Source: a bacterium (lineage in GTDB: Bacteria; Planctomycetota; Planctomycetia; Planctomycetales; Planctomycetaceae). From it: a stretch of DNA of 64,000 nt. The stretch is taken from assembly GCA_016125225.1 (NCBI GenBank), contig WGME01000003.1:434001-498000 (forward strand), written 5' to 3'. Numbering within the stretch: the stretch's first letter is position 1; the number at the start of each line of letters is the position of its first letter. A program made the translations under genes and the position numbers. The notes beneath the pieces are model-generated. The model had not been told where the DNA came from. It made no database searches and worked only from the letters and a program-made list of their open reading frames with translations. This document shows positions 3,665-47,475 of this stretch, in pieces.

Positions 3665-5125
3665 ATGCCATTGCCCAACCTGCAGTCTCTGGAGCACTAC
3701 CTCATCGAAGAGCGTCTGGTCGAGCCTTTGCAGTTGCAGGAAGCGCTTCGCCAACTCGGCCGTAATCTTGACTATGCCTCGTTGGTGAAGACCCTGGAAC
3801 AGCGCACCTTTCTGACGTCGTACCAGGCGCAGAAACTGTCGAAGCACGAGACCGAAGGGTTGCGAGTCGGCCGTTATAAGTTGCTCTATCGAAACGCCTC
3901 GGGAAGTTTTGCCCGTGTCTTCCGTGGCTGCTCGGTTGATGACGGGAGCGTGGTTGCCATTAAAGTGCTGCGGCAACGGCATGCCGAAGATCCCCGGTCG
4001 GTCACGATGTTCCGACGCGAAGGAGAACTGGGTAAGCGACTCGTGCATAAGAACATCGTGCCGATCTATGAAGTCGGTTCGGATGGGGATCAGCATTACT
4101 TCACGATGGAATTTGTCGAAGGAGGAAACTTCCGCGACTTCATCAAGATTCGCAGGAAGTTCGCTGTTCCTGAAGCGACGCAGTATGTACTCGACATGGC
4201 GGAAGGCTTGGAATATGCCTTGGGGTTGGGATTAACCCACCGCGATCTGAAACTCTCGAATGTGTTGCTCAGTGCCCAGGGGGTTGCCAAGCTGGTCGAC
4301 TTCGGACTCGCGGGGCTCGATGCATCACTGGCGGCGATGGAAGCCGAAGTCGATCGAGCGATTGAATATGCCACCCTAGAGAAAGGTACTGGTGCACCGA
4401 ACAACGATCCACGGAGTGATCTCTATTTTCTCGGGGCGATCTATTTTGAGCTGCTCACGGGCAAGCCCCCCTACCCTCCGACAAAAAATCTCGATGAACG
4501 GCGGCAGTTTGGCCGTTATCGCGATGTTCCAGAGTTGAAGTCCGTCGATCCCAGCCTGCCGACGGTTATCACCGACATTGTCGACCGGTTGATGTGCATC
4601 GACCCGAATGACCGCTATCAGACGCCCACACAGTTGATCCCTGATTTGCGCCGTGCCTTAAACGGTGGTGGACCAACGCCGGACGATGCGGAATCCCCAG
4701 GAAGTGCGAAGGCTGCGGCCCCGGTTCCTACCACTGTCATCTGCATTGAGAACCGTAAGAAGCAGCAAGACGCCTTGCGGGAGTACTTCAGTAAGTATGG
4801 CTATCGCGTGCTGGTATTGACCGATCCCCTGCGGGCACTCAACCGAGTGGAATCGGAACGTATTCTCGCCTTACTGCTCATTGGCGATGCCCTCGGGGCG
4901 GAAATCAGCAGCGTGTATCAAGCGGCATTAGCCCGGTGCAAGCGTCGACAAACAGCTGTCGTACTGGCCCTCTCGCCGAAGCAGGCGGAATTGGGGGAGA
5001 AGCTGAGCCAGCCGGACTTTGCCCGCGTGCTGACCGAAGGAGTGACGCTTCGCAGCATCCGTCAAACATTCATCGATCTCACAGGGGTCACCCCCGCGCC
5101 CGCTGAAAATTCCGAACCGGCTTGA
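3665..5125 (+). CDS. Ser/Thr protein kinase with degenerate receiver-like C-terminal domain
   Basis: Hanks-type protein kinase, 486 residues, no membrane segment, so probably cytoplasmic. Residues about 1-65 form a helical N-terminal region (LIEERLVEPLQLQEALRQL). The kinase domain follows: catalytic Lys100 in VVAIKVL, HRDLKLSN at 192-199 and DFG at 212-214. The glycine-rich loop is weak (RNASGSFARVFRG). After a linker, residues about 356-475 resemble a response-regulator receiver fold. The acidic pocket is absent (IENRKK where VDDE is expected) and no clear phospho-Asp is seen, so it is probably a binding module. The start is the first ATG that keeps the helical region; no good ribosome-binding site precedes it. 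Substrate unknown. Confidence 0.88.
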   Translation: MPLPNLQSLEHYLIEERLVEPLQLQEALRQLGRNLDYASLVKTLEQRTFLTSYQAQKLSKHETEGLRVGRYKLLYRNASGSFARVFRGCSVDDGSVVAIKVLRQRHAEDPRSVTMFRREGELGKRLVHKNIVPIYEVGSDGDQHYFTMEFVEGGNFRDFIKIRRKFAVPEATQYVLDMAEGLEYALGLGLTHRDLKLSNVLLSAQGVAKLVDFGLAGLDASLAAMEAEVDRAIEYATLEKGTGAPNNDPRSDLYFLGAIYFELLTGKPPYPPTKNLDERRQFGRYRDVPELKSVDPSLPTVITDIVDRLMCIDPNDRYQTPTQLIPDLRRALNGGGPTPDDAESPGSAKAAAPVPTTVICIENRKKQQDALREYFSKYGYRVLVLTDPLRALNRVESERILALLLIGDALGAEISSVYQAALARCKRRQTAVVLALSPKQAELGEKLSQPDFARVLTEGVTLRSIRQTFIDLTGVTPAPAENSEPA

Positions 5126-44307: not shown

Positions 44308-44988
44308 CTACCATCGCCGAGACTGAAGTTCCTGCAAACTGCTGACGGTGAGGATCAAAAACAGAATCGCAGCACCTTGCATGCCCAACTGAAACATTCC
44401 AGCAGTGGTCAAGGCTCCCACCCCGACGCCGACTTTCAAGGCCACGCCACGGGCATCCCGCAATCCAAACAACTGCAGAATCGCTTCGAGGGCTTGCCCG
44501 CCATCCAGGGGCATGACCGGCAACAGATTGATCAGTGACCAACCGCAGTTGATATAGACCATGGAAAAACAGACCATTTGCAGGTACTGATGCGTTTTGT
44601 CCGACCATGTTGGTGGGATGAACGCCATCCCAAATACCAGAATGACGAACCATACCAGCCCCATCATGAACTGCGGAATCGGCCCGCCGAGCGTAATCAT
44701 CAGCGACTTCCACGGCGTATGATCGCGACCGGGGAAATAGGCGGCATAACCGCCGAAGTGATGCAGCACAATGTGCGGATCGTACCCCAATGCAGCAGCA
44801 GTCAACGCATGCCCGAGTTCATGAAACAGAATCGATACGAAGACGCACATCACCCAGAGAAATACGAGGTCGAGCCGCTCGGGACTCCACCCCATGAGTG
44901 CCGCCATCAGCCAGAACGTTGGAATCACGCGCACCGGAATCCGGAACAGATGCATCTGCAGATCGAACGGCGTACCTTCAGCAAACAT
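44308..44988 (-). CDS. site-2-protease-like membrane metalloprotease (M50 family)
   Basis: 226 residues with about six hydrophobic segments. The zinc site HELGH (56-60) lies in a membrane helix, and the third ligand is in NLLPVMPLDGGQAL (Asp162). This compact form lacks PDZ and CBS domains and matches the small rhomboid-like S2P group. It may cleave membrane-bound substrates, such as anti-sigma factors, but its partners are unknown. Probably co-transcribed with the antiporter. The retron RNA lies upstream in opposite orientation. Confidence 0.9.
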   Translation of the reverse strand: MFAEGTPFDLQMHLFRIPVRVIPTFWLMAALMGWSPERLDLVFLWVMCVFVSILFHELGHALTAAALGYDPHIVLHHFGGYAAYFPGRDHTPWKSLMITLGGPIPQFMMGLVWFVILVFGMAFIPPTWSDKTHQYLQMVCFSMVYINCGWSLINLLPVMPLDGGQALEAILQLFGLRDARGVALKVGVGVGALTTAGMFQLGMQGAAILFLILTVSSLQELQSRRW

Positions 44989-45100
44989 GCCCCATCCTTG
45001 TTAGAACGAGCCATGACTGTAATCGCGATACGGTACGGTGTCGAATGTATGGGCATGGATTCAATAGCAGTGCAGACCGAACCTGACTACAATCCCATTT

Positions 45101-45272
45101 GCGGTCTGTGGGACGCACAAGACCAGTGGCCTGTCTGCAATATGGCATTGCCACGCTGCGGGGTACCCCCGTGGTCGCAGAGTATTCCCATTTCACAGGG
45201 TTACGAACCGCATTCGTGGTCACCACGAATGCGGTTCGTCGCGAGTCGACAGTTGGGCGTCCCACGGACCGC
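45101..45272 (+). ncRNA. predicted retron msr-msd RNA
   Basis: Predicted by structure only. The outer arms a1 (GCGGTCTGTGGGACGC, 45101-45116) and a2 (GCGTCCCACGGACCGC, 45257-45272) pair at all 16 positions with one G.U, and three more pairs follow beyond one mismatch. Inside, a short-hairpin region (about 45126-45180, including GTGGC/GCCAC and CTGCG/CGCAG) suits msr. A perfect 17-bp hairpin with a TCA loop (45203-45219 with 45223-45239) suits the msd stem. The element ends 44 bases before the RT start codon, as expected for a retron. The branching guanosine cannot be placed with confidence; G45121 in CAAGACC just after a1 is one candidate. Confidence 0.78.
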
Positions 45273-45316
45273 GTTTGTTTTACACTGTTCGTTGTTCGAA
45301 GTCGCCAGGTACAGGG

Positions 45317-46612
45317 ATGGATCAACGCTGGCTGGGGATACTGATCGTCGTTGCGGCCTGGATTGTTGTCCGCACGTTGTTCGGCAAACGCCGAACGCAA
45401 CCTCGGTCATCCCGGTCAATCCACAAGGAGCGTTACGAACAGCAGCGTGTCCGTCCTGCCATTCGCGAGAAGCGCCCGCTGATAGTTGGCCGCAACAAAA
45501 GCCCACTTCTAGCGGTCGCATCACCCCCTCATTCCTTCGCTCATCGTGGCTTAAAACCAGGCACTTGGTACGATCTTTCGCAAGATGGCCGGAACGACGA
45601 ACTGGTCCGTCGTGGCTTGCCGGTCTTTCAGACGCCTGATGAACTCGCCGCATGGTTGAACGTCCCCGTCAACCGGCTGGCATGGCTGGCGTATCGTTGC
45701 ACGCGTGGCAACCTGCCCGGTGTGTCGCAGTCGCACTACGTCTACACCTGGAAGCCGAAACGAACTTACGGTTACCGATTGATTGAGAGTCCCAAGGCGA
45801 GTCTGAAAACCGTCCAGCGGCAGATCCTCACAGAGATTCTGGACCACTTGCTTGTCTCGGAAGCGGCACATGGGTTTCGCAAAGAACATTCGATCCTCAC
45901 CAACGCTCAACTCCATGTGAATGCTGCCGTCGTGGTCAAGTTCGACCTGAGCGACTTCTATCTCACGGTCCGCTCGGGTCGCATTACCAACCTCTTGCGG
46001 CGGGTCGGCTATTCCCGTGAAGTCGCCATCTGGCTGACACGGTTAACCACATCCACCATCCCCGGGAACTTGCCGCCACCACCGACCAATCCCATCGTGA
46101 TGTGGAACTATCGGCAACGTCATCTGCCACAGGGGGCACCCTCTTCGCCCGCGCTGGCGAACCTCGTCGCCTATCGACTCGATCAGCGATTGCTCGGCCT
46201 CGCCAAGTCCTTCGGCGCGAACTACACACGCTACGCTGATGACCTCACGTTTTCCGGCGATGAGTCGTTCGCTGCCGCTTTGCGGGCCTTCATTCCCTTG
46301 GTGGAAGCGATCATTCGCAGAGAGCGGTTCCAGTCGAACAACGCGAAGCGGCAGATTCTCCGACGGCATCAACGGCAGATCGTCGCAGGTGTCGTCGTGA
46401 ATGAGAAACCGAACTTCTGTCGCAAGGATTTCGATCGTCTCAAAGCGATCCTGCATCGTTGCGTGACACAGGGACCAGCAGCACAGAATCGCGATCAAAT
46501 CGAAGACTTTGCCGCCCATTTACGCGGCCGCATCGCCCATGTCCGGCAACTCAACCCGCAACGAGCCTTGAAGTTAGAATCGCTCTTCCAACGGATCGAC
46601 TGGCGGCGATAA
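45317..46612 (+). CDS. ret: retron reverse transcriptase with N-terminal membrane segment
   Basis: 431 residues from the ATG at 45317 (AGGTACAGGG upstream). Residues 6-22 (LGILIVVAAWIVVRTLF) form a hydrophobic helix followed by a basic stretch, so the enzyme may be membrane-anchored. RT motifs: GYRLIESPKASLKTVQRQIL, AHGFRKEHSILTNAQLHV with retron-type NAxxH (196-200), VVKFDLSDF (207-214), LPQGAPSSPALANL, and YTRYADDLTFSGD with catalytic YADD (306-309). The retron VTG motif appears as VAG (356-358) in IVAGVVVNEKPNF. A retron RT copies part of its own msr-msd RNA into a branched RNA-DNA hybrid; known retrons are anti-phage systems. The paired RNA lies directly upstream. Confidence 0.93.
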   Translation: MDQRWLGILIVVAAWIVVRTLFGKRRTQPRSSRSIHKERYEQQRVRPAIREKRPLIVGRNKSPLLAVASPPHSFAHRGLKPGTWYDLSQDGRNDELVRRGLPVFQTPDELAAWLNVPVNRLAWLAYRCTRGNLPGVSQSHYVYTWKPKRTYGYRLIESPKASLKTVQRQILTEILDHLLVSEAAHGFRKEHSILTNAQLHVNAAVVVKFDLSDFYLTVRSGRITNLLRRVGYSREVAIWLTRLTTSTIPGNLPPPPTNPIVMWNYRQRHLPQGAPSSPALANLVAYRLDQRLLGLAKSFGANYTRYADDLTFSGDESFAAALRAFIPLVEAIIRRERFQSNNAKRQILRRHQRQIVAGVVVNEKPNFCRKDFDRLKAILHRCVTQGPAAQNRDQIEDFAAHLRGRIAHVRQLNPQRALKLESLFQRIDWRR

Positions 46613-46722: not shown

Positions 46723-47475
46723 GTGCTGGAAATCCTGCATTTCCTGATGCCATGGAAGCTGCTGGCGTTACTGCTGAAGCCGCTGGTACGTATCGTTCTG
46801 GGAGTGGTTGCCGTTCCGCTGAGTAAGCTATTTCTGCATCGAGTGGTGCGGTTGCAGGAACTCGATCAGGAACTGGAACGCGACTTGACATCCTGGATTC
46901 GGGGTTCGTTCCTGCTGCTGATCGCAACGGCCAACATGGAGGGCACGTTCTTTAAATGGGTGCCGATCGAATGGCGGGCCGAGCACGTGTTCATCATCGG
47001 CATGCGATTGATGCTGGCCATCGGTGTGATTGAAGGGATGCCCGACCAGGCGTTGTTCGCCATCATTCATCCTGGTCCGCCAAAGTTCCACATGCAATGG
47101 CGTGCCCCGTGGCAATCGTTTAAGGCATACCTGCCATCCTTGTTCAAGGGCCTCGTCTGTCAGCATCTCAACCGTTCATCGCCGGTGCTTGCCATCCTCA
47201 CGGTCTTCTTCGCGGGAACAACCGGTTGGGTTTGTTACGGACTGGCCATCACCAATTACCTGATCATCGGCCTGGTCTCGTCACGCGATCGCGCCATTGA
47301 TGTGCTGCGGAAATTCGACAAGGCTGTCGCTGAACGCCGTCACGATCTGAAAGAGGAATTGCACACGGAATCGGAACTCTCGCCCGAACAGCGCGTGCAA
47401 GCCCTTGATCAACCGGAATCGTTTGCGAACCTTACTGACCTGACGGAAGCGGCGGCGTCATCTGCAGAACCTTAA
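46723..47475 (+). CDS. membrane protein of unknown function downstream of the retron
   Basis: 250 residues from the GTG at 46723, with AAGGAAC upstream. Hydrophobic segments lie at about 5-40, 60-80, 90-108 and 150-185. The soluble C-terminal region (about 195-250) is acidic (ERRHDLKEELHTESELSPEQ). No family recognised. It lies 110 bases after the retron RT on the same strand, so it might be an effector, since some retrons use membrane proteins. It could equally be an unrelated conserved gene. Its last 44 bases overlap the 3' end of the convergent prolyl oligopeptidase gene. Confidence 0.75.
   Translation: MLEILHFLMPWKLLALLLKPLVRIVLGVVAVPLSKLFLHRVVRLQELDQELERDLTSWIRGSFLLLIATANMEGTFFKWVPIEWRAEHVFIIGMRLMLAIGVIEGMPDQALFAIIHPGPPKFHMQWRAPWQSFKAYLPSLFKGLVCQHLNRSSPVLAILTVFFAGTTGWVCYGLAITNYLIIGLVSSRDRAIDVLRKFDKAVAERRHDLKEELHTESELSPEQRVQALDQPESFANLTDLTEAAASSAEP

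Follow-up and report, generated by a model that had tools for sequence, protein, structure and literature searches.

The window, a stretch of 64,000 nucleotides contained in a 6.35-Mb planctomycete genome, comprises between positions 45101 and 46612 a reverse transcriptase (RT) gene preceded by an msr-msd RNA gene, both on the plus strand, which a preliminary description had read as a complete-looking retron. This reading is borne out by the RT sequence, its predicted structure, the anatomy of the RNA, the gene order, covariation and the one-to-one co-occurrence of both components: the locus is a retron by every testable criterion, and it is near certain that it represents a genuine one, composed of RT and msr-msd, the production of msDNA being inferred. 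The retron is flanked by (i) a divergent M50-type peptidase gene (44308-44988, minus strand; Pfam PF02163), not counted in the system, and (ii) the gene of a 250-aa protein (46723-47475, plus strand), a conserved downstream neighbour.

Architecture of the reverse transcriptase and its RNA

The RT gene (45317-46612, plus strand) starts with an ATG codon and encodes a retron reverse transcriptase of 431 aa matching Pfam RVT_1. The NAxxH and YADD motifs, already recognised in the preliminary description, are located at N196-A-Q-L-H200 and residues 306-309, respectively, whereas a third motif, at residues 356-358, reads VAG in the window and VTG in the majority of orthologues. Residues A197, H200, D210, Y306, A307, D308, D309 and G358 are identical in 62/62 RT orthologues, N196 is kept in 61 of the 62 sequences, and the third motif conforms to V-T/A/C-G. 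Among the PADLOC profiles, on whose names the retron type assignment is based, RT_other (E 2.3e-123, 411 bits) and RT_outgroup (2e-117, 391 bits) match best, covering residues 54-430, followed by RT_XIII (1.6e-101). The solved structures nearest in sequence are retron RTs, Ec86 first, and a model computed with AlphaFold2 on 62 orthologues (mean pLDDT 90.6) superimposes through residues 89-431 onto the Ec86 RT with a Z score of 28.5 (3.3 A over 302 residues, 30% identity). Retron RTs take all of the first 14 places among the structure matches of the model (Z 21-28), compared with Z 18 for DRT2.

The RNA gene extends from 45101 to 45272 and ends 44 nt before the RT gene, in agreement with the order and spacing first described, RNA first and RT 44 bases later. 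The 16-position pairing proposed for its ends holds: the a1 arm (GCGGTCTGTGGGACGC, 45101-45116) and the a2 arm (45257-45272, followed by a T-rich stretch) form 15 Watson-Crick pairs and one G.U, and the helix is lengthened by CAA 45118-45120 facing TTG 45253-45255. The enclosed region comprises, all on the plus strand, (i) a conserved CAAG motif after a1, of which G45121 is the candidate priming (branch) residue; (ii) a conserved msr hairpin, CTGCGGGG-TAC-CCCCGTGG, at 45156-45174; and (iii) the msd hairpin at 45203-45239, confirmed as a perfect 17-bp stem (45203-45219/45223-45239) with the loop TCA and forming the central part of the sequence predicted to be copied into RT-DNA (about 45181-45252). 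The AAG after a1 is invariant or nearly so in 49 sequences, A25 and G26 of the RNA being invariant, and the priming role of the G is inferred from known retrons (PMC6868368). Folding of 45095-45280 yields a minimum free energy of -101.7 kcal/mol, whereas shuffled sequences average -66.5 +/- 4.2 (z = -8.3; 0/200). Seven nucleotides 5' of a1, a -10-like hexamer, TACAAT (45088-45093, plus strand), provides a 5/6 match where orthologues have TAnnnT.

A scan of the window against Rfam gave no match at gathering thresholds, and the msr-msd RNA falls in no Rfam family. The Pseudomonas sRNA family P37 appears below threshold at 45201-45259 on the minus strand (30.3 bits versus a gathering threshold of 50), a match owed mostly to the msd hairpin and judged a hairpin look-alike; a sub-threshold match to the Rfam family VA was taken in the same way.

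Compared with Ec86 (Eco1), of type II-A, the planctomycete retron displays a common RT fold, the NAxxH, YADD and VTG-type motifs, the a1/a2 pairing and an msd hairpin; nevertheless, Ec86 has a linked effector, solved together with it (7v9x), whereas the planctomycete RT has none and carries an N-terminal membrane segment. Despite the RT_XIII profile match, the retron does not qualify as type XIII, given the higher scores of RT_other and RT_outgroup, RT profiles without a defined effector, and the absence at the planctomycete locus of the accessory genes seen in the more distant relatives L046-L080. In these relatives, two recurrent genes lie mostly upstream of the RT, encoding proteins of ~546 aa (19 loci) and ~521 aa (11 loci), in line with what a type XIII-like system should have.

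Covariation, predicted transcription and displacement of the RNA

The alignment A1, made from 49 orthologues on which the covariance model R1 was also built, discloses a consensus of three helices: a1/a2 (19 pairs), the msr hairpin CUGCGGGG-NNN-CCCCGCGG and the base of the msd hairpin. Across these orthologues 94.4% of the consensus cells are paired, a share that falls to 40-47% once the partners are shifted relative to each other. Nineteen pairs are changed on both sides, including 11/19 aligned pairs of a1/a2, 3 of the 8 pairs of the msr hairpin (98.5% of cells paired) and all five scored basal pairs of the msd stem, with a covariation score of 0.366 versus 0.158 in shuffled alignments (0/500). 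The preliminary description would have been refuted by a lack of covariation in the a1/a2 arms or the msd stem among homologues; covariation is found in the arms and at the base of the msd stem. The covariance search that it suggested likewise supports the RNA: R1 finds it in 93/94 family genomes with an RT orthologue, and in the window genome its sole place is the RNA described here (92 bits).

Since the 49 orthologues were chosen for complementarity between a1 and a2 around a core of 7 nt, the a1/a2 pair counts are partly circular. This circularity is answered by (i) a fixed stem-picking procedure, successful in 41/50 orthologue upstream regions versus 2/2500 Markov-shuffled regions; (ii) the matches of R1 to ten non-training orthologues, which score 102-123 bits and each sit just upstream of the RT; and (iii) the two inner helices, for which no selection was made. 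A single locus among 150 genomes, L156 (G036:C274:3928-4086 and 4247-4405), displays two tandem RNA copies upstream of one RT.

A promoter-like element, TTGA[CT]-N15-19-TAnnnT, occurs in a narrow range 5' of a1 in 24/48 orthologues, compared with 0.2% of shuffles; in the window itself, a clear -35 is absent before the -10-like hexamer. The 12 nt past a2 are 54% T in the 49 orthologues. Because of this element, sigma-70-like in many orthologues, and the T-run behind a1/a2, the RNA resembles a small transcription unit of its own, one that may act in trans.

The RNA lies next to the RT in the window and in nearly all orthologues, but the two are apart in genus g4, represented by three metagenome-assembled genomes (G003, G059 and G085, all those sampled), in which no R1 match is found upstream of the RT. 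Each of them contains one strong RNA match away from the RT (94-99 bits), located between sulfotransferase-like and transporter-like genes, named from reading their translations. The displaced RNA keeps the promoter-like element, a1/a2, CAAG, the msr hairpin and the T-run, and its msd hairpin is altered in sequence with the pairing retained. Although these genomes are metagenome assemblies, the RT and RNA loci both preserve their neighbours from one assembly to another. At the level of genome sequence, genus g4 carries a naturally split retron, with the RNA at a conserved locus other than that of the RT. The split suggests that the RNA can serve the RT in trans in nature.

Membrane segment, distribution and inheritance

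The first 21 residues of the window RT (45317-45379, plus strand) constitute a transmembrane-type helix, with a mean hydropathy of 2.12 over 19 residues and a helix at residues 4-21 in the model. Among 69 core RT N-termini, 48 begin with MG, the usual forms being MGLFxFLxxLLFG and MGFFSWLxxxFGW; the pattern persists in the majority of the remainder (e.g., MKRLLEFLRWLLGG and MSLFDNILRWFG). Start codons were picked by rule, so that some of the starts may be misplaced. Hydrophobic residues occupy positions 3, 4, 6, 7, 10 and 11 in 86-100% of 56 such N-termini, and the mean identity to the commonest residue reaches 56% at residues 2-13 versus 20% in the following linker. The amphipathic helix is replaced by a transmembrane helix in the window, in its congener G025 (L082) and in G022 (L041), from one other genus, with mean hydropathies of 2.1, 1.9 and 2.6, respectively. 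The occurrence of two solutions, amphipathic and transmembrane, to one need points to membrane attachment, and the RT N-terminus is likely to act as a membrane tether, as judged from sequence patterns alone; hydrophobic N-termini can do things other than anchor. The verrucomicrobial RTs L057 (MGFFSRLIHRFL...) and L080 (MLGFLKRLF...) also display a short, amphipathic-looking N-terminal helix, perhaps a second membrane attachment.

The distribution of the retron was established in 150 genomes of the planctomycete family, with cut-offs of E < 1e-100 for the RT and > 50 bits for the RNA. The RT is present in 94/150 genomes (our own table count) and is accompanied by the RNA in all except G104, whose RT match begins at query residue 135. 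RT and RNA together occur in about 63% of the family genomes and in 41/58 genera, nearly always in one copy, and no strong RNA match without at least an RT fragment was found among the 150 genomes. Roughly one in three family genomes has no such RT, which is therefore not essential. Beyond the family, a phylum-wide sample yielded weak matches only, of at most 41 bits. A second, patchy group of RTs, of about 41-48% identity, partly displays weak R1 matches upstream and another N-terminal domain. In the distant RTs L161-L165 and several of L020-L045, a conserved helical N-terminal domain of ~85 residues takes the place of the membrane helix, and weak matches to the RNA model lie just upstream of some of them.

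Comparison of RT and rpoB trees for 50 genomes indicates that 17 of 26 RT splits with support >=0.9 are shared and 6 are in conflict, and the tree distances correlate with r = 0.69, compared with at most 0.14 in 999 permutations. As read from these trees, the retron has been inherited mostly vertically, and the six conflicting splits indicate that some transfer has occurred. The RT of L144 (G029:C179) groups with another genus, away from its rpoB place, which suggests transfer; the genus-mates of G029, namely G071 and G091, contain distant RTs only. Collections of phages and plasmids contained no full-length RT, only partial matches of 46.6% identity at best.

The lack of a linked effector and the possible function of the retron

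A recurrent effector gene is absent within about 6 kb of the RT in the 41 flanked loci. The only widely recurring neighbours in these loci are the M50-type peptidase, adjoining the RT in 18/41, and the downstream 250-aa protein, adjoining it in 20/41. The latter has no Pfam, NCBIfam or PADLOC match and is ruled out as effector: it is found in 130/150 genomes irrespective of the RT, many of them without this RT, and thus represents conserved synteny. Nor did the RT model reveal an effector domain, in a fold search whose match list was filled by RTs and in which the N-terminal 88 residues were not queried separately. The genes from 36.8 to 53.8 kb of the window look metabolic or housekeeping, and the only PADLOC match among ten neighbours scanned is a protein kinase, of a family that matches many generic kinase profiles. 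With housekeeping neighbours and only partial matches in phages and plasmids, a defence-island or mobile-element setting is not met at this locus.

The interpretation that we consider probable, in the absence of RNA, RT-DNA, localisation or phenotype data, is that of a domesticated, mostly vertically inherited chromosomal retron of the planctomycete family, with the RT-msDNA probably held at the membrane and without a linked effector. By inference from retron membership, the RNA would fold through a1/a2, and the RT would bind the folded RNA, prime on the 2'-OH of G45121 after a1 and copy the msd hairpin into RT-DNA. The RNA is inferred to act in trans, having its own promoter-like element and T-run in most species, and the RT-msDNA complex would probably be held at the membrane by the N-terminal helix, amphipathic or transmembrane, which a flexible linker joins to the rest of the RT. 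More speculatively, the membrane-held msDNA may have a sensing or regulatory role, in which the N-terminal helix might itself deliver the response. msDNA synthesis, membrane tethering and action in trans are all inferences. A more specific proposal, in which the retron is domesticated and free of an effector gene in most family genera, with (i) a membrane-tethered RT-msDNA, (ii) an independent trans-acting RNA, split in one genus, and (iii) a function, cellular or linked to the membrane, that lies outside classical tripartite defence, remains tentative and falls somewhat short of even confidence.

The strongest competing explanation is an ordinary anti-phage retron, in which an unlinked effector is kept inactive by the RT-msDNA and freed on infection, the conserved locus being merely the seat of the RT. 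All functionally solved retrons work in this manner (PMC12548924), and the g4 split demonstrates that the parts of the planctomycete retron can be unlinked; an unlinked effector elsewhere in the genome cannot be excluded. Against this stand the lack of an effector beside the RT in all 41 loci (0/41), the mostly vertical inheritance and the absence of a defence island, so that an anti-phage role is not shown, protection against phages being untested, and we regard this explanation as unlikely without discarding it. Less plausible still, and in our view rather improbable, is that the N-terminal helix is itself the effector of a one-protein toxin, its tip restrained by the RT-msDNA and disturbing the membrane when the msDNA is attacked. 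The short cationic amphipathic helix is strongly conserved and followed by a variable linker, and its pattern is similar to that of membrane-active antimicrobial peptides, a resemblance that offers no more than a lead. Retrons whose single gene includes a fused effector also exist, such as Ec67 with Toprim and type XII with TIR, according to PADLOC model names; the replacement by a plain transmembrane helix across three lineages nevertheless fits an anchor better. That the RT belongs to a defence system other than a retron (DRT/UG-like) and uses a different type of template RNA is hardly credible: DRT systems too have upstream ncRNAs, yet the structural ranking of retron RTs over DRT2, the conserved NAxxH and VTG/VAG motifs and the presence of a1/a2, CAAG and the msd hairpin all oppose it. 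A defensive role, by way of either an unlinked effector or the N-terminal helix, and a cellular role all stay possible.

The domesticated, mostly vertically inherited retron favoured here stands, by analogy, closest to the vertically inherited retrons of myxobacteria and farthest from the tripartite retrons of defence. The myxobacterial Mx162, Sa163 and Mx65 (Retron-Mxa1, -Sau1 and -Mxa2) are widespread in their lineage, with msDNA in 27/28 strains, and are judged vertically inherited, and their RTs have an extended N-terminus of unknown function (PMC6868368). The planctomycete retron is similarly family-wide, mostly vertical and endowed with an extended RT N-terminus; it differs in phylum and in the branch motif, CAGC/GAGC in myxobacteria versus AAGC/AAGA/AAGT in planctomycetes. 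The resemblance is a likeness of habit and not a shown kinship, no comparison with the Mx162 sequence having been made. A literature search for planctomycete retrons, trans-encoded retron RNAs or membrane-anchored retron RTs found none in titles and abstracts, subscription papers being mostly uncovered.

Current opinion treats retrons as mobile cassettes, made up of RT, RNA and effector, that act against phages. In planctomycetes, RT and RNA have stayed associated through mostly vertical descent in some 41 genera; an effector gene is absent, and the membrane segment is conserved. The planctomycete retron brings back a question first posed by its myxobacterial counterparts, namely what role a retron present throughout a lineage plays in the cell that carries it, and this question is testable in culturable planctomycetes.
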